Below, in pieces: positions 33,212 to 64,000 of a stretch of DNA of 64,000 nt. The stretch's first letter is position 1; every line of letters starts with the position of its first letter. Where the stretch lies: positions 6,696,001 through 6,760,000 of the forward strand of contig NZ_JAPEOZ010000001.1 of the NCBI RefSeq assembly GCF_026340655.1. The letters run 5' to 3'. The notes under the pieces are model-generated. The model did no database searches. It worked only from the letters and a program-made list of their open reading frames with translations, and was not told the origin of the DNA. This DNA is from Streptomyces sp. NBC_01275. GTDB taxonomy: Bacteria > Actinomycetota > Actinomycetes > Streptomycetales > Streptomycetaceae. A program made the position numbers and the translations under genes.

Positions 33212-33430
33212 CCATCTGTCATCGGAACCTGAGAGGTTCGCCGTGATCTCCGGATCACCGACTTGCACCTTGGGTGGAGCCGCCCCTGTCGACACAGGGA
33301 TCGGCCCGCTTTTCAGATGTGCCTCGCCCGCGCGGTAACTGGGCCTGAGAGATTCAAGGGAGGGACTTGCTCCTTCGGCGCCCCAGCGAAGCTGGCGATG
33401 CAGCTGCTGCTGGGAACTCTCCCGCGCGGA
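33212..33430 (-). ncRNA. Tandem glycine riboswitch upstream of gcvT
   Basis: On the minus strand two glycine-aptamer cores follow one another. The first begins GCGCGGGAGAG, includes GGCGCCGAAGGAGCAA and ends near CTCTCAGGCCC and TACCGCGC. The second has AAGGTGCAAG and closes with AACCTCTCAGGTTCCGATGA. These are the conserved glycine-riboswitch elements, and the position 51 bp before gcvT fits an ON switch for glycine breakdown. The rest of 33431-33611 is the promoter region shared with the divergent kinase gene. Confidence 0.93.
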
Positions 33431-48857: not shown

Positions 48858-48926
48858 CCGGATGTCACGAGAGTCAGATGTCATGTGAGGCGGCGCGAGA
48901 GCCGCCTCGGAGGGGGATCCGATCCC

Positions 48927-50713: not shown

Positions 50714-51331
50714 TCACCGGGGTGCGGGGACGGCGAAGAGCCGTAGCTGGAGGGCGAGCGTGGCGTAGTAGCCGACCAGGGTGGACAGTTCGAACAGGGC
50801 GCGTTCGCCGAGGGCGGTGCGCGCCCGCTCGTAGCCCTCGTCGTCGAGTGCGCGGACCGGGACGGTCAGGGTGCGGGCGAGCTCCCAGGCCGCGTGTTCC
50901 CGGGGATCGGCGAGCTGTGGGTCGCGGCTCTCGCGCAGGGCCGTCAGTTCGGGCTCGGTGAGGCCGGCGGCCCGGCCGACCCGCTCGTGCGCGTACCGCT
51001 CGAAGGCGCAGTCCCAGGCCGCGGCCACCACCAGGATCGACAGCTCGCGCACCCGCGGCGACAGCCCGGACGCATAGCGGATCGCGGCACCCAGTTCCTG
51101 CAGGGACCGGCCGAGTGCCGGGCTCAGCAGCATGGCGTTGAACGGGCCGTGCAGCCGCCCGTCGGCATCGGTGAGCGCGAAGTGCCGGGGCCCTCTCGCC
51201 CGCGGTCCACGGGTGATCTCCTCGTACAACGTCCGCTGCTCCGGAGAGAGTTCGCCGGGGTCGAGCAGGGGCAGGCGGGGCGGGCGGGGTGTCGGACGGG
51301 GCATCGGGCGGGGTGTCGGGCGGGGTGTCAT
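50714..51331 (-). CDS. Carboxymuconolactone decarboxylase-family protein
   Basis: A 205-aa protein of the AhpD/CMD fold. LSPRVRELSILVVAAAWDCA and FERYAHERVGRAAGLTEPEL match the helix pair that forms the active site; the CxxC of AhpD is absent, with one Cys present, so a decarboxylase-like or lyase role is more likely than peroxidase. The first 20 residues are a degenerate PRPTPRPM repeat. ATG at 51331 overlaps the stop of the DRE-TIM gene as ATGA, so the two are made together. Confidence 0.82.
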   Translation of the reverse strand: MTPRPTPRPMPRPTPRPPRLPLLDPGELSPEQRTLYEEITRGPRARGPRHFALTDADGRLHGPFNAMLLSPALGRSLQELGAAIRYASGLSPRVRELSILVVAAAWDCAFERYAHERVGRAAGLTEPELTALRESRDPQLADPREHAAWELARTLTVPVRALDDEGYERARTALGERALFELSTLVGYYATLALQLRLFAVPAPR

Positions 51332-52647
51332 CCGGCCTCCCGGGCCAGTGCCATGAGGTCCTCGTCCGTGGGCAGACGGTTCTCCGCGGCCATGAACAGG
51401 CGGGCCCGGCGCAGGAGTTCGTCCACAGCGGCGGGGGTGAGGTCGAGGCCGAGGGCCGTCGTGCGGTCCGCCAGGGTGTACGGGCCGCTGTCGGGGGTGA
51501 AGGGCGCCAGGCGTGCGTTGCCGACGAGGCCGGGCTCCAGGCAGTTGTGCAGGAGGGGGTCGATCTCCGCCTCCTGGGTGATGAAGTCCAGGCCGCCCCA
51601 GCAGAAGGCGTGCGTGCCGGTCACCGGGTGGTTCCACGGCGTGCGGTACCCGGTCAGCTCCTCGCCCGCGCGCGCCAGCGCGGTGAGCGACTCGGTCCGC
51701 AGGCCGGTGCGTACGCCGTAGAGGGCCTCGAAGGCGAGGGCGGCGGCGGCCAGGTCGGCGTTGCCGGGGCCGCCGCAGTAGCCGTTGACCGACAGCTCGA
51801 CGGCGCTCGCGCCGGCCTGCACGGCGGCCACCGCGCAGCCCACGGCGAGCCCGAAGGTGTTGTGCGGATGCAGCCCCACCTCGACGTCCGGCGCCAGCTC
51901 CCGGACGCGGTGCACCAGATACGCGTACGCCTCGGGGCTCATCGCGCCCGGCCCGTCGAACAGGGTCAGTTCGCCGGCGCCGGCGGCGGTCAGCGCGGCC
52001 ACGGTCTCCTCGAGATCGTCCTCGGTGAGGTAGGAGACCATGAGCATCGGGGCGATCACGTCGAGTCCCTGGGCGCGGGCGTGCCGGACCAGCCCGGCGG
52101 CCCGCTCCAGCACCGCGCTGCGGGTGGGCGGGGCGGCGCCGCGCGTCTCGCCCCGCCAGGCGGCCGCGTAGACCGCGGGCTGGTAGGCGAGGGACGTTTC
52201 TCCGAAGCCCTGCACCCAGACCTGTACGGCGTCGTAGCCGGCCCGCGCGGCGCGGTCGACGTCCTCGGGCGAGCGCATCAGGGGGCAGATCACCCGGCAG
52301 TCCGGGTTCTCGCCCTTCACCAGGTCGACCTCGGCCTTGAGCAGGGCGTCCTCGCGGCCGCCGGGCCCGGCGGTGACGATCTCGGGGACCCCGGCGGCCA
52401 CCAGCCGCCGTAGGAAGGCGTGTTTGGCCCCGGTGGAGGCCACGACGCCAGGCAGGGTCTCCACCGAGCGCAGGGTCGCGTCCCGCAGCCGCACGGCGGA
52501 TGGTAACGGACCCACCACGTCCGTACGGCGGTTGAGCGGGCTGACGGACCAGCGGCCGGGTTCGTGGGCGCCGGGCGCACGCCGGGCACGGAGTTCGGCG
52601 CGGAACCGGGCGAGCTCCTCCGGAGCGAAGACGGGGGGTTTCTCCAA
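51328..52647 (-). CDS. DRE-TIM metallolyase (HMG-CoA lyase/isopropylmalate synthase superfamily)
   Basis: A 439-aa TIM-barrel enzyme. RLRDATLRSVETLPGV holds the metal Asp and catalytic Arg, GLHPHNTFGLAVGCAV the HxH metal pair, and NGYCGGPGNADLA the late active-site loop. It lacks the leucine-sensing domain of LeuA, so cleavage of a C-C bond in a hydroxy or keto acid is likely. The exact reaction is unknown. TTG at 52647 is chosen because AGGAGG lies 5 bases before it. It is divergent from the SDR gene, with palindromic operators between them. Confidence 0.8.
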   Translation of the reverse strand: MEKPPVFAPEELARFRAELRARRAPGAHEPGRWSVSPLNRRTDVVGPLPSAVRLRDATLRSVETLPGVVASTGAKHAFLRRLVAAGVPEIVTAGPGGREDALLKAEVDLVKGENPDCRVICPLMRSPEDVDRAARAGYDAVQVWVQGFGETSLAYQPAVYAAAWRGETRGAAPPTRSAVLERAAGLVRHARAQGLDVIAPMLMVSYLTEDDLEETVAALTAAGAGELTLFDGPGAMSPEAYAYLVHRVRELAPDVEVGLHPHNTFGLAVGCAVAAVQAGASAVELSVNGYCGGPGNADLAAAALAFEALYGVRTGLRTESLTALARAGEELTGYRTPWNHPVTGTHAFCWGGLDFITQEAEIDPLLHNCLEPGLVGNARLAPFTPDSGPYTLADRTTALGLDLTPAAVDELLRRARLFMAAENRLPTDEDLMALAREAG

Positions 52648-52719
52648 GGCGTCCTCCTGGTGGGCGTCCTCTTGGCGGGCGTCCGTCCTGATGCGGGCTC
52701 TTCGACACCATCCAAGGTG

Positions 52720-52813
52720 TCTGTCGACAGAGTTGGCAAGAGTGTGACAGCGAATCCCTTGTTTCGGTCTCCGTGTTTACTTTGTGTCGACACTTGGCTA
52801 AGACTGTCGGCAG
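52720..52813. promoter_or_regulatory. Three palindromic STGTCGRCAS boxes between divergent catabolic operons
   Basis: CTGTCGACAG at 52721-52730 (12 bp with flanks TCTGTCGACAGA), GTGTCGACAC at 52784-52793 and CTGTCGGCAG at 52804-52813. The same box recurs at 54.7 and 63.7 kb. Probably the operator of a GntR-, IclR- or LacI-type regulator encoded outside the window. Confidence 0.65.
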
Positions 52814-52841
52814 GTTCGATCCCCGACCGAGGGAGTCTCCT

Positions 52842-53702
52842 GTGCTCCGAGACACGCCAGAACCCCACCCCGATCCCCACCCCCGTCCGCATTCCGACCC
52901 CCGTCCCGGCCGGCTCGCCGGAAAGGTCGCCGTCATCGGCGGCGCCGGCAGCGTCGGTCCCGGCTGGGGCAACGGACGGGCCGCCGCCGTGCTCTTCGCC
53001 CGTGAGGGCGCCGCCGTGTATCTGACCGACCGCGACAAGGACGCGCTGGAGGTCACCGCCGAGCAGGTCCGCGCCGAGGGCGGCGCCGTCCGCACGGATC
53101 TGCTGGACGTCACCGAACCGGACGCCGTCCGGGCCTACTTCGAGGAGACGGCCGCCCGGGCCGGCCGCATCGACGTCCTGGTCAACAACGTGGGCGGCTC
53201 CCGGCCCGGCGGGGTGGCGGAGCTGAGCGAGGAGGACTGGGACGGTCAGCTGCGGACCAACCTGACCAGCGCCTTCCTCGCCTGCAAGCACGTCGTCCCG
53301 GTCATGCGGCGCGGCGGCGGAGGGGCGATCGTCAACACCGCCTCCTGCTCAGGACTGCGCTGGACCGGAGCCGCGCAGGTGGGCTACGCGGCGGCCAAGG
53401 CGGCGGTCATCCAGCTGTCCCGGGTCACCGCCGTGCAGTACGCGCCGGACGGCATCCGGGTGAACACCGTCGTGCCCGGTCAGCTGCACACCCCGATGGT
53501 CGAGGCCCGTCTCGCCGGGCAGCGCGCGGGCGGCGACGTCACCGGACTCCTCGCCGACCGCCAGGCCCGCATCCCGCTCGGCTTCATGGGGGACGGCCGC
53601 GACACGGCGTACGCCGCCCTCTTCCTGGCCTGCGACGAGGCGCGGTTCGTCACCGGCACCGAGATCGTCGTGGACGGTGGAATGACGGCCCGCTGTGACT
53701 GA
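52842..53702 (+). CDS. Short-chain dehydrogenase/reductase (first of three)
   Basis: A 286-aa NAD(P)-dependent oxidoreductase. After a Pro/His-rich N-terminus of about 25 residues, the dinucleotide loop is unusual: GGAGSVGPGWGNGRA in place of TGxxxGIG, with extra residues. NNVGG, catalytic Ser in NTASCSG and the YxxxK motif GYAAAKAA are intact. GTG at 52842 with GGGAG 7 bases upstream. The stop overlaps the amidohydrolase start by 8 bp. It likely oxidises or reduces an alcohol in the same pathway. Confidence 0.88.
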   Translation: MLRDTPEPHPDPHPRPHSDPRPGRLAGKVAVIGGAGSVGPGWGNGRAAAVLFAREGAAVYLTDRDKDALEVTAEQVRAEGGAVRTDLLDVTEPDAVRAYFEETAARAGRIDVLVNNVGGSRPGGVAELSEEDWDGQLRTNLTSAFLACKHVVPVMRRGGGGAIVNTASCSGLRWTGAAQVGYAAAKAAVIQLSRVTAVQYAPDGIRVNTVVPGQLHTPMVEARLAGQRAGGDVTGLLADRQARIPLGFMGDGRDTAYAALFLACDEARFVTGTEIVVDGGMTARCD

Positions 53703-54720
53703 CTCCGCCCTCCACGGGCCGGTCGCCGCCGTTCCCTCGCCCGGCTGCCCGCCGCCGCACCCCGCACCTCGCGCGCCCGGGGTTCGCCTGCCGGAGGGGA
53801 GTTGTGACGCGCACTGTCATGTGTTCGGGCCGGCCGGGGTCTTTCCGTACGCGGCCGAGCGGACGTTCACGCCGCTCGACGCCCCCAAGGAGCAACTGTG
53901 CGCGCTCCATGCCCACTTGGGGCTCAGCCGGGCCGTGGTCGTGCAGTCGTCCTGCCATGGGCGCGATCACCGGGTGCTGCTGGACGCCCTCGCGGCGGGG
54001 GGCGGGCGGTTGCGCGGGGTGGCCCTGGTCGGGGAGGCGACGAGTCGGGCCGAGGTCGAGGAGTTGCACCGGGCGGGAGTACGGGGGTTTCGGCTCAACT
54101 TCCTTCCCCATCTGCGGACTCCGCCGACCCGCGCCGAGATCGACGCCGTGCTCGACCGGGTGACGGACCTCGGCTGGGTCGCCCAGCTGCATGTGCGGGG
54201 CGTGGACCTGCCCGCCGTGGAGGACCTCGTCCGTGCCCTGCCCGGCCGGGTGGTGGTCGACCACATCGGGCGGGTCGACCTCGACGCGGGGCGGGAGAGC
54301 CCGGCCGTGCGCAGCCTGCGGGAGCTGCTCGACACCGGTGACGTGTGGGTCAAGGTCAGCGGCGTCGACCGGGTCTCCCGGCAGGGGCCGCCGTACGCCG
54401 ACGCCGTGGAACTCGCCGCGTCCCTCGTCGCGCACGCGCCCGAGCGGGTGGTGTGGGGGACCGACTATCCGCACGTCAACATCGTCGGCGAGGCCCCCGA
54501 CGACGGCCTGCTCGTGGACCTTCTCGAGCGCATCGCCCCCGACCCCGCCCACCTGAGGCGGCTGATGGTCGACAACCCCGCCGAGCTCTTCGACTTCGGC
54601 CCCTCGGTCGACAGCTCCTGGAACAACGGCGTCTCTGACCTCTCTCCGCCAACTAGTGTCGGCAGAGATGGCAGATATTTCGATGACTCATCTCTTGAAG
54701 GCAAAAAGTGTCGACAGTAG
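53695..54720 (+). CDS. Amidohydrolase-2 lactonase-like enzyme
   Basis: A metal-dependent TIM-barrel hydrolase. His40 and His42 in CDAHCHVFGP, GFRLNF, VVDHIGRVDL and GTDYPHVNIVG match the group that includes 2-pyrone-4,6-dicarboxylate lactonase and L-fuconolactonase. Opening of a lactone is the best guess. The frame runs 40 residues past the usual end, through a region that contains two palindromic operator boxes, so the C-terminal tail may be an accident of a lost stop. GTG at 53695 overlaps the SDR gene. Confidence 0.85.
   Translation: MTDSALHGPVAAVPSPGCPPPHPAPRAPGVRLPEGSCDAHCHVFGPAGVFPYAAERTFTPLDAPKEQLCALHAHLGLSRAVVVQSSCHGRDHRVLLDALAAGGGRLRGVALVGEATSRAEVEELHRAGVRGFRLNFLPHLRTPPTRAEIDAVLDRVTDLGWVAQLHVRGVDLPAVEDLVRALPGRVVVDHIGRVDLDAGRESPAVRSLRELLDTGDVWVKVSGVDRVSRQGPPYADAVELAASLVAHAPERVVWGTDYPHVNIVGEAPDDGLLVDLLERIAPDPAHLRRLMVDNPAELFDFGPSVDSSWNNGVSDLSPPTSVGRDGRYFDDSSLEGKKCRQ
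54656..54717. promoter_or_regulatory. Two palindromic boxes before the FAD oxidase gene
   Basis: GTGTCGGCAG at 54656-54665 and GTGTCGACAG at 54708-54717 lie 36-98 bp before the FAD oxidase start and inside the last codons of the amidohydrolase frame. Same box as at 52.7 and 63.7 kb. Confidence 0.6.
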
Positions 54721-54753
54721 TGTCCCGGATGCAATCGTCGTGAGGAGACGGCC

Positions 54754-56169
54754 ATGCACCAACCGCCCCAGGGCGCCCTCGTCCGCCGCGGTGACGAGGC
54801 CTACGAAGAGGCCCGGCTGGACGCCGTCTGGAACGCGCGCAAGCCGCACCGCCACCCCGCGGTCGTCGTACGCGCCGAGAACGAGCAGGACGTCGTCGCC
54901 GCGGTCCGCCTCGCCCGCGCCGAGGGCCTGACCGTCGGCATCCGCTCCGGCGGCCACAGCTGGGTCGGCAACGGCGTGCGCGACGGCGGCATGCTCCTCG
55001 ACCTCTCCCTGTTGCAGGACATCTCCGTCGACCCCCTGGCCGGCACCGCGAGCGTGCAGCCCGCCGCCAAGGGCCCGGCCCTCCTCCAAGCCCTCGCCCC
55101 CTACGGCCTGTTCTTCCCCACCGGCCACGCTCCCACCGTCGGTCTCGGCGGCTTTCTTCTCGGCGGCGGCTACGGCTGGGACTCACGCCACCTCGGCCCC
55201 GCCTGTCTGAGCATCGAGGCCGTCGACGTCGTCCTCGCCGACGGCACCCTGGTGCACGCCACCGACGCCACCCACCCCGCACTGCTGTGGGCGGCCCGCG
55301 GCAGCGGCCCCGGCTTCTTCGGCGTCGTCACCCGCTTCCACCTCGCCCTGCACGACGCCCCCGAGCGCATCCTGCGCACCGTCCACACCTACCCCCTGGC
55401 CCTGCGCGACGAGGTGCTGGCCTGGACGTACGACACGCTCGAACTGCTGCCGCCGGAAGTCGAGTTCTCGGCGAAGGTCGGGTGGGGGTCCGGGGGCCTG
55501 CCCCCGGAACAGCACGGCACGCCCGGACTGGACCGGCCGACCGTCTCCGTCACGGCCACCGCCTTCGCCCACGGCGACGCCGACCCGCTCGCCGCGCTGG
55601 AGGACGCGCCCTTCCGCGGGCACGCCCTGCGCGCGCTCGTCGGCGCCCCGACGACCATGGCGGAGCTCTACGACCACGCGGACCGGATGAACCCGGCCGG
55701 GCTGCGCTGGGCCCTCGACGGGATCTGGACCGACGGCCCGGTGGACGAGATCCTGGCCGCCGCCCGCCCCCTGCTCGACTCGCTGCCGGGCGCCCCCAGC
55801 CATGTCCTGTGGATGCTGTGGGGCGGCTTCCCGGAGCGCGCCGACGCCTGCTGGTCCAGCCAGGCCAAGCTCTACCTCTCGCCCAACGCGGGCTGGACCG
55901 ACCCGGCCGAGGACCTCGTCCACGAACAGTGGGCGCACGGCGAACTCGCGGCGATCCAGCACCTGTCGAAGGGGCTGCAGTTCTCCGACAACAACCTCGC
56001 CGACCGCCCCGACCACGGACTCCGCCCGGAGCACGCCACCCGCCTGGAGGAGATCCGGGCCGTCTACGACCCCGACGGTCTGTTCCACACGTACATGACG
56101 CCCCGGGAGTCCACCACCGCCTACGCGGCAGCGGCCCGGACGGCGGCGGCAGCGGCCCGGACGCGCTGA
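54754..56169 (+). CDS. FAD-linked oxidase, BBE type
   Basis: A 471-aa flavoenzyme of the berberine-bridge/PCMH fold. IRSGGHSW at His68 is the covalent FAD site (8-alpha-N1-histidyl). The second, 6-S-cysteinyl site normally found in GxCPTVG is Ala126 (GHAPTVG), so flavin should be singly linked. The BBE C-terminal motif NNLADRPDHGL is near residue 410, and the substrate domain lies between. Such enzymes oxidise alcohols, sugars or amines with oxygen. ATG at 54754 with AGGAG 8 bases upstream and two palindromic boxes before it. Confidence 0.9.
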   Translation: MHQPPQGALVRRGDEAYEEARLDAVWNARKPHRHPAVVVRAENEQDVVAAVRLARAEGLTVGIRSGGHSWVGNGVRDGGMLLDLSLLQDISVDPLAGTASVQPAAKGPALLQALAPYGLFFPTGHAPTVGLGGFLLGGGYGWDSRHLGPACLSIEAVDVVLADGTLVHATDATHPALLWAARGSGPGFFGVVTRFHLALHDAPERILRTVHTYPLALRDEVLAWTYDTLELLPPEVEFSAKVGWGSGGLPPEQHGTPGLDRPTVSVTATAFAHGDADPLAALEDAPFRGHALRALVGAPTTMAELYDHADRMNPAGLRWALDGIWTDGPVDEILAAARPLLDSLPGAPSHVLWMLWGGFPERADACWSSQAKLYLSPNAGWTDPAEDLVHEQWAHGELAAIQHLSKGLQFSDNNLADRPDHGLRPEHATRLEEIRAVYDPDGLFHTYMTPRESTTAYAAAARTAAAAARTR

Positions 56170-56223
56170 CGGCACCGCACAGCTTCGCTGCCTCGCCTTG
56201 CCCCGCAACGCCTCAGCCCTTGC

Positions 56224-56300
56224 CTCGCCCTAGCCCCGCCCCGCCTCAGCCCTGCCCCGCCCTAGCCCTGCCCCGCCTCAGCCCCGCCTCGCCTTCGTCC
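56224..56300. repeat. C-rich degenerate tandem repeat
   Basis: Alternating GCCCTGCCCCGCC, CTAGCC and CTCAGCC units of about 16 bp between the FAD oxidase and binding-protein genes. It is on the coding strand, so the message would be C-rich and unstructured there. Confidence 0.6.
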
Positions 56301-56351
56301 CGCACCGTCCTCGTCCCGCACGCCCCGTCCGACCGCAAGGAGAGCCGTTTC

Positions 56352-57365
56352 ATGGACACCTCGAGAATCGCGCGGCGGCGTGCCGTCCTCGCGCTCAGCG
56401 CCTGCGTCGTCGTCCTGTCCCTGACCACCACCGCCTGCGGCGGCGACTCGGCCGCAGACGCCACGAGCGCCGACGGGAAGGCGAAGATCACGGTCCTGCG
56501 CTCCAACGGCGCGATCTTCGAGCCGCTCTACATAGCCGAGCAGCAGGGCTACTTCGAGGCCGCCGGCCTGGACGTCACCATCAAGGCCGGCGCGCAGGAC
56601 ACCTCGCAGAACGCGCCGTCCGTCCTCAACGGCGAGGCCCAGTTCGCGATGACGGACAGCTCCGGCTTCCTCAAGGGCGCCGCCCAGGACATGCCGATCC
56701 GGATCGTCACCGGTCTGCAGTCCGCCACGACGAGGACCGCGCCCACCGACGGTCTCCTGGTGAAGGAGAAGAGCGAGATCACGTCGTTCGCGGACCTGGA
56801 GGGCAGGACCGTCGGCATCTCGGCGCTCGGCGGCACCATCCAGTTCATCTGCGAGTACCTCGTCCAGAAGGCCGGCGGCGACCCCTCGAAGGTCAAGTTC
56901 GTCGCCCTGCCCACCACCTCGCTGACCGACGCCGCCACCTCCGGCAAGACGGACGCGATCTTCTCCTTCGGCCCGTTCTACGCGGCGGCCCAGGAGAGCG
57001 GGCTGCGCACCGTCGGCAACGGCATGAACGACCTGCCCGGAATGGTCCAGGGCGTGCTGTTCTCCAGCCAGAAGTACCTCGCGGCGAACGGCGACACCGC
57101 GAAGAAGTTCATCGACGCCGTCGCCCAGGCCATCGCCTACGCCAACGCCCACCCCGCGGCCGTCAAGGCGATCGACAAGAAGTACACCCAGGCGCCGGCC
57201 GCCTACATCGACGCACACGACATCAACTACTACGACAAGAACCTCGACACCACCGTGATGCGCACCGTCATCGAGAAGATGCACGAGTTCGACCTGCTCG
57301 ACAAAGAGCCCGCGGACGACGCCGTCTACTGGGACGAGGCGCCGACCGTCACCGGTGCGGAGTAG
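56352..57365 (+). CDS. NMT1/THI5-like (TauA/SsuA type) solute-binding lipoprotein
   Basis: Extracellular receptor of the importer, 337 aa. ATG at 56352 with AAGGAG 10 bases upstream; signal peptide with lipobox LTTTAC. ITVLRSNGAIFEPLYIAEQQ and GYFEAAGLDVTIKAG open the two-lobed fold of binding proteins for sulfonates, nitrate, pyrimidine precursors and aromatic acids. The ligand is not readable. Genes for two permeases and an ATPase follow, so the system is complete. Confidence 0.9.
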   Translation: MDTSRIARRRAVLALSACVVVLSLTTTACGGDSAADATSADGKAKITVLRSNGAIFEPLYIAEQQGYFEAAGLDVTIKAGAQDTSQNAPSVLNGEAQFAMTDSSGFLKGAAQDMPIRIVTGLQSATTRTAPTDGLLVKEKSEITSFADLEGRTVGISALGGTIQFICEYLVQKAGGDPSKVKFVALPTTSLTDAATSGKTDAIFSFGPFYAAAQESGLRTVGNGMNDLPGMVQGVLFSSQKYLAANGDTAKKFIDAVAQAIAYANAHPAAVKAIDKKYTQAPAAYIDAHDINYYDKNLDTTVMRTVIEKMHEFDLLDKEPADDAVYWDEAPTVTGAE

Positions 57366-57369
57366 CCCG

Positions 57370-58137
57370 GTGGTGCGGGTCCGGCTTCTCCAACTCGGCG
57401 CGCTGGCCGCCGTACTGGCCCTCTGGGCGCTTGTCACCACACTGGGGGCGGTGAGCAGCACGGCGCTGCCCGGCCCGGTGTCCGTGGCCGGCGCGTTCGG
57501 CGATCTCGTCGGCACCGGGGTGTTCTGGCAGGCCGTCGGCGACACCCTGCGCGGCGCGGTCACCGGGCTCGCGGTGGCCGTCGCCGTCGGCATCCCGGTC
57601 GGCCTGGTCACGGGCGTGTACGCGGCGGCCGAGGAGTCCTCGCGGCTGCTGACCGAGATCCTGCGCTCCTTCCCGGTCATCGCCCTGCTGCCGGTGTTCC
57701 TGCTGGTCCTCGGCTCGACGCCGGGCATGAAGGCCACGGTCGTTTTCATCGCCTGCGTCTTCCCGGTGCTCCTCCAGGCCCAGTACGGCGCCCGCAGCGT
57801 GCCCCCGGCCGTCCACGACACCGTACGGACCTACCGCATCCCGCGACTGCTGCGCTTCCGGCGGGTGATCCTGCCGGGCGCGGTGCCGTCCGTGATGACG
57901 GGACTGCGGCTGGCCGCGACGACCTCCGTGCTGGTGGCCATCGGCGTCGAGGTGCTCACCACGCTCCCCGGCATCGGCCACATGATCATGGAGTCGCAGG
58001 CGGCCGGGGCGTCCGACCGGGCGTACGCGTACATCCTCACCGCCGGCGCGATCGGCTACTCGATCACCCTGCTGGCCCAGTTCGCCGAACGCCGGCTGCT
58101 GCGCTGGCGGCCGCCCACGCACCCCGGGGAGGCATAG
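57370..58137 (+). CDS. ABC transporter permease (SsuC/TauC type), first
   Basis: A 255-aa membrane protein with about six helices. RTYRIPRLLRFRRVILPGAV is the cytoplasmic loop contacting the ATPase, and VLTTLPGIGHMI the following helix. GTG at 57370 has GGAG 7 bases before it; a GTG at 57355 overlapping the binding-protein gene is also in frame. Most SsuC/TauC systems use one permease as a homodimer; here a second different permease follows, suggesting a heterodimer. Confidence 0.9.
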   Translation: MVRVRLLQLGALAAVLALWALVTTLGAVSSTALPGPVSVAGAFGDLVGTGVFWQAVGDTLRGAVTGLAVAVAVGIPVGLVTGVYAAAEESSRLLTEILRSFPVIALLPVFLLVLGSTPGMKATVVFIACVFPVLLQAQYGARSVPPAVHDTVRTYRIPRLLRFRRVILPGAVPSVMTGLRLAATTSVLVAIGVEVLTTLPGIGHMIMESQAAGASDRAYAYILTAGAIGYSITLLAQFAERRLLRWRPPTHPGEA

Positions 58138-58141
58138 AACC

Positions 58142-59029
58142 GTGCACCGCCCGCCGTGGAACCGACCGCCGCTGAACCGCCCGCTGTCGAACCGCCCGCT
58201 GTCGAACCGGATGCTGCTGAACCGGATGCTGCGCCAACTGTGGCTGCCCGTCCTGGTGTTCGTGATCCTGCTGCTCGCCACCGCGGGCAGCACCAGCTTC
58301 TACTTCCCGCCTCTGACCACGGTGCTCGACACCCTGTGGAGCGAACTCGCCCACGGCGGACTCCTCGACGACCTCTTCTTCAGCCTGCGCAACATCGCGC
58401 TCGGCCTGGCGCTCGCCACCGTCGTGGGCGTCGGCGCGGGCCTGGTCATCGGCGAGGTCCGCACCCTGCGCCTGGCCACCGCACCGCTGCTCGACTTCGC
58501 CCGCGCCACCCCGACCGTCGGCTTCGTGCCCGTCATCATCCTCACCCTGGGCATCGGCTCAGGACCCAAGGTCTTCCTGATCTTCCTCGGCTCCCTCTGG
58601 CCGATCCTGCTCAACACGGTCAGCGGAGTGCGGTCCATCGGCCCGGCCGTGCACGAGACCGCCCGCGGCTACCGCATCCCCTGGCGCCTGCGGCTGCGCC
58701 GGGTGATCCTGCCCGGCGCCCTGCCCCAGGTCTTCGCGGGCATCCGGGTCGCCCTGTCCATCGCCGTCGTCCTCATGGTCGTCAGCGAGATCTACGGATC
58801 GCCCGTGGGCCTCGGCAACTTCATCCTGCAGAGCGGGTCGAGCTTCCACGTCGCCGAGACCTGGGCCGGCACCCTCCTCATCGGCGTCCTCGGCTACGTC
58901 CTGAGCGTGCTGCTCCTGCTCGTCGAGCACCGTCTCCTGGGCTGGCACCACCAACGCGCCCCCCGCACGCCCCGCGCCCGCCCGACCCCGCCCGCGCCCC
59001 CAGAGAAGAGCAACGGAGCCGTCGTATGA
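58142..59029 (+). CDS. ABC transporter permease (SsuC/TauC type), second
   Basis: A 295-aa membrane protein. The first 30 residues are a five-fold repeat of a unit like NRPLS (15-bp DNA repeat, 58159-58233) and precede the first helix. RGYRIPWRLRLRRVILPGAL is the ATPase loop, closely similar to the first permease. The C-terminus is Pro/Arg-rich. GTG at 58142. The stop overlaps the ATPase start as ATGA. Confidence 0.9.
   Translation: MHRPPWNRPPLNRPLSNRPLSNRMLLNRMLRQLWLPVLVFVILLLATAGSTSFYFPPLTTVLDTLWSELAHGGLLDDLFFSLRNIALGLALATVVGVGAGLVIGEVRTLRLATAPLLDFARATPTVGFVPVIILTLGIGSGPKVFLIFLGSLWPILLNTVSGVRSIGPAVHETARGYRIPWRLRLRRVILPGALPQVFAGIRVALSIAVVLMVVSEIYGSPVGLGNFILQSGSSFHVAETWAGTLLIGVLGYVLSVLLLLVEHRLLGWHHQRAPRTPRARPTPPAPPEKSNGAVV
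58159..58233 (+). repeat. 15-bp in-frame tandem repeat in a permease N-terminus
   Basis: Five units beginning GAACCG: the middle two are nearly identical and the last two differ from them in the second half. They encode NRP(P/L)-type pentapeptides that precede the membrane domain. Confidence 0.8.
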
Positions 59030-59826
59030 GCCGAATGACCCGCGGGTCCACCCTGTACGTCGAGGACCTCGGCATGACCTTCGGCCAGGGGCCGCAGGAG
59101 CACCGGGTGCTCGACGGGCTCACCCTGCGCGTGGACCCGGGGGAGTCCGTGTGCATCGTCGGACCCTCCGGCGCGGGCAAGACGACGCTGCTGCGCGCTC
59201 TCGCCGGGCTGACCCCGGCCACCTCCGGCACGGTCCGCTACGGCGAGCAGCCCCTCACCGGTCCGCACGCCGACATCGCCGTCGTCTCCCAGGACTACCG
59301 GGGCTCGCTGCTGCCCTGGATGCGGGTGTGGGACAACGTCGCCTTCCCGCTCCAGGGCCGGGGCGTGCGCAAGCCGGAGCGCCGACGCCGGGCCCTGGAG
59401 TGCCTGGCCGCGGTCGGCCTGGCGGACGTCGGGGACAAGTACCCCTGGCAGCTCTCCGGCGGAATGCAGCAACGGGTGGCCATCGCGCGCGGGCTCGCCT
59501 ACGACGCCCCGGTCCTGCTCATGGACGAACCGTTCGGGTCGGTGGACGCGCAGTCCCGGTTCGACCTGGAGGACCTGACGCTGCAACTGCGCCGGCAACT
59601 GGGCATCACCGTCGTCGTGGTCACCCACGACATCGACGAGTCCGTCTACCTCGGCGACCGCGTCATCGTCCTCGGCGGAAAGCCGACCCGCGTCCTGGAC
59701 ACCCTGGCCGTCCCCTTCGGCGCCGACCGCGACCAGCTCACCACCCGCGCGGACCCGCGCTTCGCCGAACTGCGCACGACGGTCCTGGCCCAGATCCGCG
59801 GCGAGGGCCTTCCCGCCCGCAACTGA
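59026..59826 (+). CDS. ABC transporter ATP-binding protein (SsuB/TauB type)
   Basis: A 266-aa ATPase. Walker A GPSGAGKTT, Q-loop VSQDYRGSLLPW, signature LSGGMQQRVAIA, Walker B VLLMDEPFGSVD and H-loop VVVTHDIDES are complete. The LLPW segment after the Q-loop is typical of the nitrate/sulfonate/taurine class. ATG at 59026 coupled to the second permease. Confidence 0.94.
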   Translation: MSRMTRGSTLYVEDLGMTFGQGPQEHRVLDGLTLRVDPGESVCIVGPSGAGKTTLLRALAGLTPATSGTVRYGEQPLTGPHADIAVVSQDYRGSLLPWMRVWDNVAFPLQGRGVRKPERRRRALECLAAVGLADVGDKYPWQLSGGMQQRVAIARGLAYDAPVLLMDEPFGSVDAQSRFDLEDLTLQLRRQLGITVVVVTHDIDESVYLGDRVIVLGGKPTRVLDTLAVPFGADRDQLTTRADPRFAELRTTVLAQIRGEGLPARN

Positions 59827-59850
59827 CCCGAGGCCCCGCCCCTCAAGCGA

Positions 59851-59922
59851 CTCCCCTTTCCCCTTTCCCCGTTCCCCGTTCCCTCTCCCCGTTCCCTCTC
59901 CCTCTCCCCACTCCCTTTTCCC
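59851..59922. repeat. 72-base polypyrimidine tract
   Basis: Only four purines in 72 bases on this strand, built from CCCTTTCC and CGTTCCC-type repeats. It lies between the ATPase and beta-helix genes. Mirror-like pyrimidine tracts can form triplex DNA, and the RNA would be unstructured. Confidence 0.8.
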
Positions 59923-59984
59923 GGCCGTCGCGCCACGCGTCGGTCACCCCTGCCCGAAAACACTGGAAGACAAAGGAGTTCACA

Positions 59985-61976
59985 GTGCCGCACACCCCCA
60001 GGACCCTCGAGGACGTGGACGTGGACGTGGACGTCAGCTACCGCGCGCGCCCCCGCGCCCTCCTCGTCGCGGTGGCCGCCGCCATGGCCCCGACGCTGCT
60101 CGCCCCGGCCACCGCGCACGCCGCGACCGCCAAGGCAGGCAAGCGGATCACGGTCGCGTCCGGCGAGACCCTCGAACTCACCGAGACCACCACCGCGACC
60201 CGCCTCACCATCGCGGAGGGCGGGGTCATCACCGTCCCCGACGGCTACAGCCTGAGCCTCACCGTCAACGGGGTGGAGACCGGCAGCGAACTGGCCGCCC
60301 TCACCGACGGCTACGGCGGAGGAGCCACCGCCATCGCCGCCGGCGCCTACCGCGGCACCGTCGTCCTCACCGTCGCCGAGGCCACCGAAGTGGCCTTCAG
60401 CGACCTCACCTTCCCCTTCCGCCAGGCGCTCTACGTCGGCGCCGACGGAGTGGACGAGGCCAAGTCCGTACCCTCCGCCGTCCTGGGCGGCACCGTCACC
60501 GACACCGCGGCGACCGGCGTCACCCTCACCTCCGACGGCGAGGCCTTCAACGGCGTCTACGTCACCGGCGGCGGCTCCTACACCCTCACGAACCCGAAGA
60601 TCGCCTTCGACGGCAACGGCCGCTGCGACTTCATCGGCTACGGCGCCTCCGTCGTCGGCACCGGCGCGGGCACCACCCTCGTCGTCGACGGCGCGACCAT
60701 CGGCAACGAGGGCGTGGTCCGTACGGCGGTCATCGCCGACGCCACCGCCAACGTGATCGTCAAGAACTCCACGCTCCACTGCGCCGACGGCACCCTGCCC
60801 GACGAATACGTCGGCACCGGCGACACCCGGTACATGATCAGCGTCCCCTGGATGCTCGGCCTGTCCGGCAACGTCCGCACCACCAACCTGCTCGGCGCGA
60901 GCACCCGGGCGTCGTACGTCAACTCCACCGTCTCCAGCGAGAAGTGGGGCGCCCTGTCGGTCGACGGCGGCAGCTACTGCACGCTCACCGCCATCAACAG
61001 CACCATCGCCAACACCGGCGGCGAGGGCTACGGCAGCTACGCCATCGGCAACGTCACCGAGCACTTCCTCGGCTGCACCTTCGACGTCGGCGACTACGCC
61101 CTCATCCACTGGGGCGCCTCGGCCCACTACGGCGACAGCACCAAGGCCGCGGTCGCCGCCCTCAACGACTCCCTCGAAATAGGCCTGACCGCCGCCGAGC
61201 TGAGCGCCCTGCCGGTGAAGTCGACCACCGTCGACTGCGGCCGCTTCATGGTCCTGTGGTACGCCGCCGGATCCGTCGCCATCGACGGCGGCACGCAGGT
61301 CACCACCGGGGAGACCGCGTTCATGTGCAAGGCGGTCGCGGGGACCGTCACCGTCGACGGCTCCGACGGGGCCACGATCACCGCGGGCAACGGCGTCCTC
61401 TTCCAGCTCATGGACACCGACCGGCCCAGCAGCGTCTCGGTGTCGGGCAAGGCGTGGAAGACCGAGACCACCGGCACCTACACCGAGCCCACTGGCTCCC
61501 CGACCAGGTCGACGACCTGGACGACGACCTCGTCCCAGTCGACCGACGCCAAGGCCGCCTTCACGGACATCGCCCTGACCGGCGACTTCTACAACTCCGT
61601 CCGGGGCGGCGGCAACGCGAGCCTCCAGGGCCAGAACCTGGTCGTGAGCCTCACCGGCTCCACCCTCGAGGGCGTCGTCTCCGCGTCCACCGCCCAGCAC
61701 GGCGTCTCCACCATCACCTCGGCCGAGTACCGCGAGATCAGCGAGGTCACCAACACGGCGAGCGCGGTCGTCAACAACGGCGTCCTGCTGACCCTGGGCG
61801 CCGGCTCCACCTGGACGGTCACCGGCACGTCGTACCTCAGCGCCCTGACCCTGGCCGCGGACGCCGCCGTCACCGCCCCCTCCGGCAAGACGGTCACCCT
61901 CACGGTGAACGGCACGGCCACGACCATCCAGCCGGGCACCGCCTACACCGGAGCCCTCACCCTGACGATCAACTGA
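59985..61976 (+). CDS. Secreted right-handed beta-helix protein
   Basis: A 663-aa exported protein. GTG at 59985 with AAGGAG 6 bases upstream. The N-terminus has a DVDVDVDV repeat, then a signal segment (LLVAVAAAMAPTLLAPATAH). The mature protein is made of short strand repeats (ATIGNEGVVRTAVIADATAN, then VIVKNSTLHCADG), the pattern of parallel beta-helix or beta-solenoid proteins such as polysaccharide lyases and adhesins. No catalytic motif is recognised. A secreted solenoid behind an importer operon suggests it acts on, or binds, the polymer from which the substrate comes. Confidence 0.75.
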   Translation: MPHTPRTLEDVDVDVDVSYRARPRALLVAVAAAMAPTLLAPATAHAATAKAGKRITVASGETLELTETTTATRLTIAEGGVITVPDGYSLSLTVNGVETGSELAALTDGYGGGATAIAAGAYRGTVVLTVAEATEVAFSDLTFPFRQALYVGADGVDEAKSVPSAVLGGTVTDTAATGVTLTSDGEAFNGVYVTGGGSYTLTNPKIAFDGNGRCDFIGYGASVVGTGAGTTLVVDGATIGNEGVVRTAVIADATANVIVKNSTLHCADGTLPDEYVGTGDTRYMISVPWMLGLSGNVRTTNLLGASTRASYVNSTVSSEKWGALSVDGGSYCTLTAINSTIANTGGEGYGSYAIGNVTEHFLGCTFDVGDYALIHWGASAHYGDSTKAAVAALNDSLEIGLTAAELSALPVKSTTVDCGRFMVLWYAAGSVAIDGGTQVTTGETAFMCKAVAGTVTVDGSDGATITAGNGVLFQLMDTDRPSSVSVSGKAWKTETTGTYTEPTGSPTRSTTWTTTSSQSTDAKAAFTDIALTGDFYNSVRGGGNASLQGQNLVVSLTGSTLEGVVSASTAQHGVSTITSAEYREISEVTNTASAVVNNGVLLTLGAGSTWTVTGTSYLSALTLAADAAVTAPSGKTVTLTVNGTATTIQPGTAYTGALTLTIN

Positions 61977-61992
61977 CCCCACCCGCACGAAA

Positions 61993-62032
61993 CCGGCCCC
62001 CGGGCGGATGCGAACCGTGTCCCGGGGGCCGG
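61993..62032. terminator. Terminator hairpin after the beta-helix gene
   Basis: Perfect 12-bp stem (CCGGCCCCCGGG at 61993-62004 against 62021-62032) with a 16-base loop, 17 bp after the stop. Confidence 0.85.
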
Positions 62033-62046
62033 AGCTCTGTGTTTCT

Positions 62047-62111
62047 CGGGGGCGCGGGGCTGTGACATGGGCGGCTCCGCCGCGGGGCGCGACCAGCCAC
62101 CACACGCCCGC
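62047..62111. repeat. Streptomyces dispersed extragenic repeat, copy 2
   Basis: Shares GGGGCGCGGGG at one end and GCGCGACCAGCCAC at the other with the copy at 35288-35330, but carries an extra inner hairpin containing GCGGCTCCGCCGC. Confidence 0.65.
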
Positions 62112-62142
62112 AGACGAAACGCGGCCCAAGCCCAGCGCAGCG

Positions 62143-62925
62143 TTACGCCCCCAGCATGTTGTAGCCGCCGTCCGCCACCAGGAAGCCGCCCGTGATGTGA
62201 TGCGCGTCCTCCGTGGCCAGGAACAGGGCCGCGCCGGCGAGTTCCTCCGGGCCGGGGATGCGGCCCATGGGCGTCGCCGCGCGCAGCGCGTCCCCGCGTC
62301 CGCCCTGCCAGTCCGCGCGCCCCAGCGTCGCCGCCGTCTCGATGAACCCGGGCGCGAAGACGTTCACCCGCACGACCGGCGCGAAGGCGTGCGCGTAGGA
62401 CTTGGTCAGCCCGATGATCCCGTACTTGGCCGCCGCGTACTGCGGAGCGCGCGCACTGCCCCGTACGACGACCGTGGAGCCGATGTTGACGATGGCGCCG
62501 CCGCCCTCCTGCTCCAGCATCCGCGCGCCGAACTCGTGCGTGCACAGCAGGGTGCCCTTCACGTCCACGGCGAGGACGTGGTCGACGGACTCCTCGGTGA
62601 GGTCCCGCCAGGACATCTGCTCGCGGGCCACGTCGCCGACGTTGTTGACGGCCACGTCGAGGCGGCCGAAGTGCGCCCACACCTCGTCGGCCAGCCGCCT
62701 GATCTGCTCGTGCTCGGCGATGTCCGCCCGCACGACGAAGGCCTTGCGGCCGAGCGCGGTCACCCGCTCGGCCGTCGCCTCCGCGCCTTCGCGCGAACTG
62801 CGGTAGTGGATCGCCACGTCGGCGCCCTCCCGGGCCGCGCGCACCGCGATCTCGGCGCCGAATCCGGTGCCCGCCCCGGTGACGAGGACGGTCTTGCCGC
62901 TGAAGCGTTCGGGGACGGGAGGCAT
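62143..62925 (-). CDS. Short-chain dehydrogenase/reductase (second of three)
   Basis: A 260-aa classical SDR. TGAGTGFGAEIA is the dinucleotide loop, NNVGD the next motif, catalytic Ser in NIGSTVVV and YxxxK in QYAAAKYG. ADWQGGRGDALR and GGFLVADGGYNM are typical late segments. ATG at 62925 with GGAG 6 bases upstream; an ATG at 62970, overlapping the previous stop as ATGA, is a possible alternative. Second gene of a two-SDR operon. Confidence 0.9.
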   Translation of the reverse strand: MPPVPERFSGKTVLVTGAGTGFGAEIAVRAAREGADVAIHYRSSREGAEATAERVTALGRKAFVVRADIAEHEQIRRLADEVWAHFGRLDVAVNNVGDVAREQMSWRDLTEESVDHVLAVDVKGTLLCTHEFGARMLEQEGGGAIVNIGSTVVVRGSARAPQYAAAKYGIIGLTKSYAHAFAPVVRVNVFAPGFIETAATLGRADWQGGRGDALRAATPMGRIPGPEELAGAALFLATEDAHHITGGFLVADGGYNMLGA

Positions 62926-62966
62926 AGGGGGCTCCGTTCGTGAAGTCGCTCGGCTCACAAGGGCGT

Positions 62967-63707
62967 TCATACGAGGGTCCGGCCGCCGTCCGCGTACAGC
63001 ACCTGCCCGGTGACGAACGCGGACTCGTCGGAGGCCAGGAACAGGACCGGGCCGGTCAGGTCCTCGGGTCGGCCGAGGCGTCCGGCGGGGACCAGGGCCT
63101 CCAGGGCGTCGCGGACGCCGGGCCGGGCGAGATGGGCGCGGGTGAGGTCGGTCTCCGTGTAGCCGGGCGCCACGGCGTTGACGGTGACGCCGGCGGCCGC
63201 CCACTCGTGGGCCATCACCCGCATCAGCTGGTCGACCCCGCCCTTGCTCGCCGCGTACGGGGCGTGGTCGCGGTGGGCGAGCCGGCCCGAGACGGAGGAG
63301 AGGTAGACGATCCGGCCGTATCCGGCGGGCACCAGCACCGCGCCGACGGCCCGGCCCAGCCAGAAGGCGCTGTCGAGGTTCACGGCGGTGATCCGCCGCC
63401 ACACCTCGTCGGGCGTCTCCAGCACGGGTCTGCGGTCGTTGACGCCGACGGCGTGCACGAACACGTCGAGGCCGCCGAGCAGCGCGACCGCCTGCTCCAC
63501 GGCCGCGCCGCAGGCGTCGGCCGAGGCGAGGTCGGTGCGCAGGCCCCGCACCGGGCCCGAGGCGAGCTTGGCGAGCTTGTCGTCGTCGACGTCGAGGACT
63601 GCCAGGCTCGCGCCCGCGTCCGCGAACGCTCTGGTCACCGTGGCCCCGATACCGCCGGCCCCGGCCACCAACACCCGTCGGCCCGTGAAGTCCCATGTCG
63701 TCGCCAT
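62967..63707 (-). CDS. Short-chain dehydrogenase/reductase (third of three)
   Basis: A 246-aa SDR. VAGAGGIGATVTRAF is the dinucleotide loop, and Asp in LAVLDVDDD suggests NAD rather than NADP. Catalytic Ser is in YLSSVSG, and YxxxK in PYAASKGG. ATG at 63707. It is divergent from the FAH-family gene and shares two palindromic boxes with it. Sequence groups it with sugar- and polyol-acid dehydrogenases, but the substrate is not certain. Confidence 0.9.
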   Translation of the reverse strand: MATTWDFTGRRVLVAGAGGIGATVTRAFADAGASLAVLDVDDDKLAKLASGPVRGLRTDLASADACGAAVEQAVALLGGLDVFVHAVGVNDRRPVLETPDEVWRRITAVNLDSAFWLGRAVGAVLVPAGYGRIVYLSSVSGRLAHRDHAPYAASKGGVDQLMRVMAHEWAAAGVTVNAVAPGYTETDLTRAHLARPGVRDALEALVPAGRLGRPEDLTGPVLFLASDESAFVTGQVLYADGGRTLV

Positions 63708-63737
63708 GCTCCGGACGGTAAGTCACGAACCCGATTT

Positions 63738-63800
63738 GTGTCCACACTTCACGCACCTATTGACGCGCAGGAGCTGTCTGGGGAGGCTGTCTGTCGACAG
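63738..63800. promoter_or_regulatory. Two palindromic boxes between SDR and FAH-family genes
   Basis: GTGTCCACAC at 63738-63747 and CTGTCGACAG at 63791-63800. The second ends 13 bp before the FAH-family start and overlaps its ribosome-site region, as expected for a repressor site. Confidence 0.6.
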
Positions 63801-63813
63801 TTGAGGAGGTTCG

Positions 63814-64000
63814 ATGAAGCTGGTGACGTTCGATCCGGGAGCCGCGGGGCTCGGGACGGGGCTCGTGGGACGACTTGTGGGCGACACGGTCGTAGAGCTC
63901 GACGTGCCGTCGACCCGGGCGTACTTCGAGCGCGAGGGGCAGGTCGGCGAGACGGGACGGACGTTCGCCGCGTCCGGCGTCCGGCTGCGCGCGCCGATCG
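63814..64000 (+). CDS. Fumarylacetoacetate hydrolase (FAH) family protein, cut by the window end
   Basis: ATG at 63814 with GAGGAGG just upstream. The 62 visible residues begin MKLVTF and include VGDTVVELDVPSTRAYFERE and VRLRAPI, the N-terminal part of FAH-family proteins that precedes the catalytic barrel. Family enzymes hydrolyse C-C bonds in diketo acids or decarboxylate them. The catalytic residues lie beyond the window. Confidence 0.78.
   Translation, partial: MKLVTFDPGAAGLGTGLVGRLVGDTVVELDVPSTRAYFEREGQVGETGRTFAASGVRLRAPI

Follow-up and report, generated by a model that had tools for sequence, protein, structure and literature searches.

The window analysed here, 64,000 nucleotides of Streptomyces sp. 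NBC_01275 (bases 6,696,001-6,760,000 of contig 1 in a 10.4-Mb genome), contains at its right-hand end a group of about twenty neighbouring genes that apparently form a real, coherent and undescribed catabolic island assembled from known enzyme families. A search of the open-access PMC literature found no description of it. The island runs from 50.7 to about 70.8 kb, or to 73.3 kb when two more secreted proteins are counted, and the window ends inside its FAH1 gene. Positions above 64,000 are extended coordinates, the DNA having been read to 82,000 and its genes called with a simple codon-score caller of our own. From left to right, the carboxymuconolactone-decarboxylase (CMD) family gene CMD1 and the lyase gene HMGL lie on the minus strand. 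SDR1 (a short-chain dehydrogenase, SDR), the amidohydrolase AH2, the oxidase FADox, a substrate-binding protein (SBP), permeases A and B, an ATPase and the beta-solenoid protein SOL follow on the plus strand. SDR2 and SDR3 are again on the minus strand, FAH1, FAH2, the amidohydrolase AH1, the carboxylesterase COE, CMD2 and a GntR regulator on the plus strand, SDR4 on the minus strand, and FGE-like and FG-GAP on the plus strand. Inside each run the genes mostly overlap or are closely spaced, in an operon-like manner. For comparisons between genomes we distinguished module A (HMGL, SDR1, AH2, FADox and the importer) from module B (SDR2, SDR3, CMD, FAH1 and FAH2). The original prediction had placed at 50714..64000 a catabolic island, so far uncharacterised, that brings along its own importer and a secreted solenoid protein. 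The proposal is supported and the island does lie there, although it continues beyond 64 kb, from FAH1 to FG-GAP. We give about an even chance to the reading in which one regulon governs the whole island, the island is horizontally mobile, and its genes serve the breakdown of an imported, likely plant-derived compound; its unity, conservation and mobility are argued from sequence evidence.

The unity of the island is suggested by a short palindrome, TGTCGACA, that is common to its promoters and occurs together with a gene for a regulator with GntR and FCD domains (68973-69713, plus strand; PF00392, 47.4 bits; PF07729, 75.1 bits). Two candidate operators, at 52722 and 52785 (52719..52795), stand 63 bp apart in the gap between the divergent HMGL and SDR1 genes. 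A single candidate at 54709 (54707..54718) precedes the oxidase-importer operon and overlaps the end of AH2, and another at 63792 (63790..63801) lies in the divergent SDR3/FAH1 gap. Candidate pairs are found in the GntR gene's own promoter (68861 and 68924) and in the SDR4/FGE-like gap (70762 and 70813). The pattern BTGTCGACAV, which misses TGTCGACA sites preceded by A or followed by T and so undercounts them, has 41 sites genome-wide, 8 of them inside 18 kb of island DNA (Poisson P about 3e-15). Seven of these eight lie in intergenic gaps, the eighth being 54709 at the very end of AH2. In the window alone there are 5 sites for 1.3 expected, a number reached in 1 of 100 shuffles.

The same word was then followed in 17 stretches comprising the island itself, Streptomyces relatives, Nonomuraea, Nocardioides and locus L029; L034, which shares a contig with L022, the S. 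fuscichromogenes locus L037 and L042-L044 are not part of the count. Although intergenic DNA makes up 71,328 of the 505,058 bases, 87 of 106 TGTCGACA sites are intergenic, orthologous sites being non-independent. Spacings below 120 bp fall at 52 (12 times), 63 (8 times), 64 (5 times), 20 (5 times) and 51 bp (3 times), with 19, 61, 74, 75 and 86 bp seen once each. Across species the HMGL/SDR1 gap has a spacing of 52, 63 or 75 bp, in steps of about one helical turn. Periodicity, computed from 17 promoter-spacing classes compiled by hand, peaks near 11 bp (R 0.90), with a smaller value at 10.5 bp (R 0.78), which fits regulator dimers bound on one face of the DNA. Two or three sites lie upstream of HMGL in 12 of 15 loci, and sites also precede SDR4-HMGL in Nonomuraea (L039). 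Several relatives have sites between AH2 and the next gene, and SOL has its own upstream site where it is separated from the importer (G109, G032). Since such sites recur, near-helically spaced, in same-gene promoter gaps of other Streptomyces, Nonomuraea and Nocardioides, the island is most likely one regulon with putative operators. Elsewhere in the genome a tight pair occurs just once (2,869,341 and 2,869,402, 61 bp apart), before a SOL paralogue. This locus (L029 10342-13752, at 2.869 Mb) encodes the paralogue (54%) and then an FG-GAP protein; an SDR and a berberine bridge enzyme (BBE) type oxidase are nearby, and it has no FAH gene. It probably belongs to the regulon as a distant second part.

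Because the gene group recurs in other genomes, its grouping is not a matter of chance. In genomes G266 and G274, the genes from HMGL to FG-GAP are kept in the same order with few extra genes and 65-93% identity; CMD1 was not found in these two blocks. HMGL is present in 15 loci of named genomes, 12 from Streptomyces and 3 from others. Within 10-kb flanks, some of them cut by contig ends, SDR1 (>70%) and AH2 accompany it in 12 loci, FADox in 11 and SOL in 7. Nonomuraea (L039) and Nocardioides (L040) carry HMGL, SDR1, AH2, FADox, CMD2, COE, AH1, an FAH2 relative, the GntR gene and the ATPase in a rearranged order, with operators present and SOL not in view. Among 295 congener genomes, near-full-length HMGL (at least 73%), FAH1 (at least 85%) and near-full-length SOL (at least 74%) are found in the same five, a co-occurrence figure that ignores genome relatedness; G084 has a partial 83% SOL match without HMGL. 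Two islands are apparently decaying, HMGL and CMD1 being fragmented in G180 (L025, L044) and HMGL partial in G040 (L027). In a class-level search at E<=1e-60, HMGL turned up in 1 of 394 genomes, the own one, which marks the island as rare. No plasmid matches to HMGL, FAH1 or SDR2 were obtained at the limits used. The unit is present in three actinomycete genera (Streptomyces, Nonomuraea and Nocardioides). It is bounded, combining a single regulator, operator word and importer with roughly a dozen enzymes that have no assigned pathway.

The chromosomal setting bears on mobility. The genes nifS and mnmA share one contig in 37 of 41 genomes searched. The island fills the interval between them, which measures 25.4 kb in this genome. 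Of the 24 genomes of the same genus in which it was measured (own included), 22 have no more than 3.2 kb there, and G021 has 22.1 kb. The island lies at the same nifS side in G274 and S. fuscichromogenes, and the G266 block has other neighbours. From these comparisons, the island appears to move between genomes as a unit and to be horizontally mobile. As a separate observation, the 22-kb nifS-mnmA gap on contig C9 of G021 is perhaps an insertion hotspot.

Part of the island also occurs by itself. Five Streptomyces (L048-L052) carry a group formed by relatives of SDR2, SDR3, FAH1, FAH2 and CMD1 from which HMGL is missing. The loci L105-L111 come from seven further genera, one genome each; all of them have SDR2, SDR3 and FAH1, six have FAH2 (not L109) and six a CMD1 relative (not L105). 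An IclR-like gene, recognised by eye, adjoins the module-B-like sets in L049 and L105-L111. Paired TGTCGACA is absent from these clusters; L051 and L110 show lone sites, as does L049, whose two are separated by 726 bp. Since such sets occur without HMGL in other genomes, module B looks like an older, exchangeable unit. The original prediction had considered that conserved neighbourhoods might split the genes into unrelated operons. HMGL-bearing genomes mostly keep the genes and operators together, whereas the module-B-like set also stands alone elsewhere.

Several observations weigh against a single mobile regulon. FAH1 is not specific to the island: in G503, a genome of the same genus outside the 295, an FAH1 of 86-87% identity and a relative of SDR2 (72%) stand alone (L104 8339-10147), with HMGL, TGTCGACA and the rest of the island not in view. 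Several Amycolatopsis have FAH1 homologues of about 80%, and type-2 clusters (module-B-like, without HMGL) carry FAH1 at 63-72%. Locus L042 carries HMGL but no TGTCGACA, and FADox is missing from S. geranii (L030). A backward control pattern has 33 genome sites against the 41 of the operator word, which is therefore clustered here and not enriched genome-wide, so that a lone site means little. There are 31 genome sites outside the island and L029, the 31st being window position 33287. In the 30 site regions inspected, with neighbours judged by eye from 50 residues, none precedes an evident catabolic operon, and no oxygenase was seen in the regulon; one remote site lies 27 bp before an apparent alpha/beta hydrolase gene (L099).

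In an alternative reading, two or more separate pathways are placed under a common regulator, modules A and B acting on different substrates. The module-B-like sets without HMGL in other actinomycetes, with their IclR-like neighbour, point this way, as do the FAH1 and SDR2 genes of G503 without HMGL and the distance of about 20 kb between modules A and B in G109. Against it, the operator word and the one regulator are common to both modules, the modules co-occur at high identity in five of five cases among the 295 genomes, and their genes are intermixed in Nonomuraea and Nocardioides. We regard separate pathways as unlikely.

HMGL (51328..52647, minus strand) encodes a DRE-TIM-fold lyase (PF00682, 99.9 bits on a 388-aa call) whose start is most likely at 52,647, giving 439 aa; the homologues printed have an N-terminal extension of about 50 residues. 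Five structural models had pLDDT values from 66 to 81, and the one used for fold comparison (81.4) shows a TIM-barrel DRE-TIM fold with homocitrate synthase 6ktq as best Foldseek PDB match (E 1.5e-17). The HxH motif is kept in all of the best 120 of 246 homologues. In DRE-TIM metallolyases, the acidic residue after LR (LRDG or LREG) is a metal ligand. At this position, 119 of the same best 120 homologues have Ser and one has Gly, whereas the two PDB relatives shown aligned with HMGL have D or E. The lyase represents a branch of DRE-TIM proteins in which the usual acidic metal ligand is missing. Named homologues among the best 120 are called hypothetical, carboxyltransferase-domain or synthase-like, and the score with the 4-hydroxy-2-oxovalerate aldolase model TIGR03217 is 64.4 bits for a cut-off of 286. 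CMD1 (50714..51331, minus strand; PF02627, 45.8 bits on a shorter 171-aa call, scanned with Pfam only) is the second gene of this leftward operon. Its start is most likely the ATG at 51331 that overlaps the HMGL stop, as arranged also in L034. In S. dioscori (L036 11816-13215), two genes resembling CoA-transferase subunits by eye follow CMD1.

On the other side of the divergent gap, SDR1 (52842..53702, plus strand; PF13561, 201.3 bits) carries the glycine motif GGAGSVGPGWGNG. AH2 (53695..54720, plus strand; PF04909, 184.4 bits on the shorter call), for which 53,695 is the most likely start, is an Amidohydro_2 lactonase of the LigI / 4-sulfomuconolactone hydrolase type. Its nearest PDB entry is the 2-pyrone-4,6-dicarboxylate (PDC) lactonase LigI (4d8l, E 1.8e-64), of which it keeps HxH, R124, H180, R183, R217 and D248. 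Across the AH2 sequences compared, H180 and D248 are present in 14 of 14 and HxH is visible in 13 of 14, one gene call being truncated. R130 and Y156 of LigI are substrate-pocket residues; as both are replaced by His in all 14 sequences, the lactone opened by AH2 is probably not PDC. The 4-sulfomuconolactone hydrolase model NF042924 gave 191.8 bits, below its cut-off of 500. The AH2 C-terminus here extends far beyond most relatives, through operator 54709 (54600-54720). FADox (54754..56169, plus strand; PF01565, 109.2 bits) is a VAO/PCMH-type flavoprotein oxidase resembling EncM, its best PDB match (6fye, E 4.8e-47, residues 6-446 of 471), and has the SGGHS motif in 18 of 19 sequences, the 19th having a gap there.

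The importer is of the TauA/SsuA type, with an NMT1/SsuA-type SBP (56352..57365; PF09084, 128.5 bits), permease A (57370..58137; PF00528, 72 bits), permease B (58142..59029; PF00528, 74.4 bits) and the ATPase (59026..59826; PF00005, 106.4 bits), all on the plus strand. The SBP N-terminus is lipoprotein-like by eye, and all taurine and aliphatic-sulfonate NCBIfam models scored below their cut-offs. The SBPs of PatDABC and OphFGH are probably of the same type as that of the island, whose own PDB matches are weak (best 3qsl, E 8.4e-10). PatDABC and OphFGH are described as bacterial ABC importers for phthalates (PMC10973024). A VOC-like gene follows the importer ATPase in G266 (L018 19131-19541), G109 (L047 13170-13574) and G032 (L023 19482-19886); the L018 copy has a weak methylmalonyl-CoA-epimerase match, the other two were recognised by eye, and none was called at that place in the window.

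SOL (59985..61976, plus strand, 663 aa), without a Pfam match, was recognised from its predicted structure as a beta-solenoid, a right-handed beta-helix modelled with pLDDT 86.5 and pTM 0.87, and its N-terminus looks like a signal peptide by eye. The fold matches listed are autotransporter-passenger-like or adhesin-like and assign no function. There are 729 homologue matches, and the named ones among the best 120 are mostly from Streptomyces. Because SOL is not in view in Nonomuraea or Nocardioides, it looks like a Streptomyces add-on outside the core. In eight of ten loci (L053-L062, not L055 or L056), its paralogues have SDR-, FAH- and FADox-like genes no more than about 10 kb away. The island links the SOL family to catabolic clusters. 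In the own genome, the paralogue at 145-165 kb (L053) is near SDR-, FAH- and FADox-like genes in a cluster that resembles L054.

To the right lie SDR2 (62143..62925, minus strand; PF13561, 172.6 bits) and SDR3 (62967..63707, minus strand; PF13561, 194.5 bits), followed on the plus strand by FAH1 (63814-64761, reaching beyond the window end; PF01557, 225.4 bits), FAH2 (64766-65584; PF01557, 200.5 bits), the second amidohydrolase AH1 (65581-66801; PF01979, 92.9 bits), COE (66798-68327; PF00135, 322.6 bits) and CMD2 (68339-68851; PF02627, 42.6 bits). Beyond the regulator gene are SDR4 (69893-70702, minus strand; PF13561, 187.8 bits), the FGE-like gene (70996-72054, plus strand; PF03781) and FG-GAP (72098-73321, plus strand; PF13517). 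SDR1, SDR2 and SDR3 keep the catalytic Y and K, and FAH1, FAH2, AH1 and COE keep the motifs checked. In SDR4, His replaces the catalytic Tyr of YxxxK (HCAGK) in six of six sequences. CMD2 has no NCBIfam match to a named decarboxylase model (PcaC, beta-ketoadipate pathway). Pfam confirmed the families that had been named beforehand (CMD, HMGL-like, three SDRs, Amidohydro_2, NMT1 SBP, two permeases and FAH). Of the proposed BBE oxidase, the FAD_binding_4 domain (PF01565) stood, whereas the BBE C-terminal domain (PF08031) had no match at E<=1e-3 and the closest PDB entry is EncM.

Some of these relatives could point to self-protection, in which a toxin of a competitor or plant would be imported and inactivated and would not serve as a carbon source. 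The PDB relatives of AH1 include toxin-degrading enzymes such as ochratoxinase, and EncM-like oxidases are best known from secondary metabolism. The ABC importer, the two FAH proteins and the terminal lyase look instead like a full breakdown, and no Pfam-recognised resistance or efflux gene is present among the island genes. Detoxification seems to us very unlikely.

Comparison with known pathways relied on Pfam and NCBIfam scans of the genes at 45.2-80.8 kb, except those at 48,885, 49,123, 78,074 and 80,809; for 48,138 and 49,503 the scan used NCBIfam alone. In the scanned genes there was neither a sugar-acid dehydratase (enolase or IlvD type) nor a ring-cleavage dioxygenase, the two genes that the original prediction had named as ones to look for just past 64 kb. 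Pfam gave no aldehyde dehydrogenase family match among the island genes, and Rfam no family at its threshold in 50-64 kb. The aromatic hint of the original prediction persists in part: AH2 is nearest to LigI, and kin of AH1 and COE occur in aromatic-type plasmid clusters, but the island has no ring-cleavage dioxygenase. Relative to protocatechuate 4,5-cleavage, AH2 is LigI-like with core residues kept, R130 and Y156 are His, and no LigAB-kind dioxygenase is found in the scanned genes. Lower meta-cleavage pathways use an FAH-superfamily hydratase and then a DRE-TIM aldolase. The island has the PF01557 and PF00682 pairing in common with them, but TIGR03217 is far below cut-off, the acidic ligand is gone and no aldehyde dehydrogenase match is present. 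In the fde/ifc flavonoid clusters of Herbaspirillum and Variovorax, the ifc cluster contains an FdeE-like flavin monooxygenase (FMO) and an FdeC-like glyoxalase-fold enzyme, and is described in connection with plant-polyphenol catabolism (PMC11069340). The SOL-paralogue cluster L054, the only one scanned, has an FMO, an extradiol dioxygenase, FAH, an amidohydrolase and a cyclase, and is comparable to fde/ifc by composition. The island, in contrast, is without an FMO or ring-cleavage dioxygenase and adds the ABC importer, the DRE-TIM lyase, the EncM-like oxidase and the GntR/FCD regulator. A single known pathway for the whole island was rejected by the family-model, residue and gene-content tests.

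The neighbourhoods of relatives give clues regarding the substrate. AH1 kin lie on Novosphingobium pNL2 (44%) beside genes annotated as hydroxylase, VOC and FAH, and in Sphingobium (47%) beside hydroxylase, oxidoreductase and carboxymethyl-hydroxymuconate isomerase genes. In Massilia, kin of AH1 (53%) and COE (43%) are found with annotated VOC and CMD genes, and two further aromatic-type gene sets adjoin. In Acrocarpospora (L042), the DRE-TIM kin (55%) is accompanied by two FAH, an Amidohydro_2 and flavin monooxygenases. The SOL paralogues with their SDR-, FAH- and FADox-like neighbours, and the extradiol dioxygenase and FMO of L054, likewise point to phenolics. Five FAH2 plasmid neighbourhoods are varied, with partly aromatic genes and no single pathway, and the one AH2 plasmid neighbourhood examined was uninformative. 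On this basis, we set at about one half the probability that the substrate is a plant phenolic or a fragment of one. Three points count on the other side. All island enzyme families are functionally broad. GH78 alpha-L-rhamnosidases adjoin module-B kin in two of eight fetched FAH1 loci, in two other families (L108 15932-18586; L110 7008-8246 and 14868-17135). A FADox relative (44%) on a Streptomyces plasmid lies near FAH, SDR, amidohydrolase, scyllo-inosose dehydrogenase and thiamine pyrophosphate (TPP)-enzyme annotations. The GH78 neighbours fit a phenolic rhamnoside and equally a sugar; a phenolic rhamnoside would satisfy both lines.

These last two neighbourhoods would agree with a sugar or sugar-acid pathway, in which an SDR would oxidise a deoxy sugar, AH2 open the lactone, an SDR and FAH cleave a 2,4-diketo-3-deoxy acid, and a dehydratase come from elsewhere in the genome. 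The island has the SDR, Amidohydro_2 and FAH families in common with the non-phosphorylative L-rhamnose/L-fucose routes, and the L-DKDR hydrolase is the best NCBIfam relative of FAH1 and FAH2, and the second in the PDB for FAH1. The equivalog cut-offs are nonetheless missed widely: FAH1 scores 162.8 and FAH2 173.0 bits with the L-DKDR hydrolase model NF053535 (cut-off 500), SDR2 155.8 and SDR3 142.2 bits with the L-rhamnose 1-dehydrogenase model Lra1 NF053807 (cut-off 400), and Lra1 is not among the 25 families listed for SDR1 and SDR4. No dehydratase occurs among ten scanned neighbours in the FAH1 loci either, and AH2 is nearest to an aromatic-pathway lactonase. The importer, esterase, amidase, CMD proteins, oxidase and DRE-TIM lyase are extra to these routes. 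With no dehydratase in the scanned genes and both models far below cut-off, the L-fucose/L-rhamnose route drawn as a parallel in the original prediction is not supported, and a sugar pathway in the wider sense is a doubtful alternative.

Under the mobile-island reading, the GntR/FCD protein, a putative repressor, would bind single or paired TGTCGACA at the island promoters and come off in response to the imported compound or an intermediate. The presumed cargo of the NMT1-type importer with its two permeases is an organic acid or a comparable small molecule, a plant phenolic or a partly degraded fragment of one being the most likely. COE and the amidase-type AH1 could remove acyl or amide groups, after which oxidation of the core by the EncM-like FADox and the SDRs would yield a beta-diketone or oxo acid. 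Decarboxylation or isomerisation would fall to the CMD proteins, C-C bond cleavage or hydration to FAH1 and FAH2, and lactone opening to AH2. The DRE-TIM protein might then make a final aldol- or Claisen-type cut to central metabolites, in parallel with the hydratase-aldolase pair of the lower meta-cleavage pathways. SOL, FGE-like and FG-GAP are probably secreted and may act outside the cell as a Streptomyces add-on. The repressor action, the substrate class, the reaction order and each individual reaction are what we infer from gene families and neighbourhoods. A more specific version seems quite unlikely when all its parts are taken jointly. In it, a plant phenolic or a cyclic polyketone would be degraded in an oxygenase-sparing manner: the EncM-like enzyme would yield a beta-polyketone in place of the action of a ring-cleaving dioxygenase, the two FAH enzymes would cut it hydrolytically, and the last C-C bond would be cut by the new DRE-TIM branch without the acidic metal ligand, the genes together forming a single mobile regulon whose operators are helically phased.

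Two minor observations concern the rest of the window. At 45414-45510, ARAGORN reports a tRNA-Thr opposite an esterase gene, probably a false call. The segment 25069-28755 has a lower GC content (0.66-0.68) and no gene called, yet open reading frames of about 300 aa are present in it.

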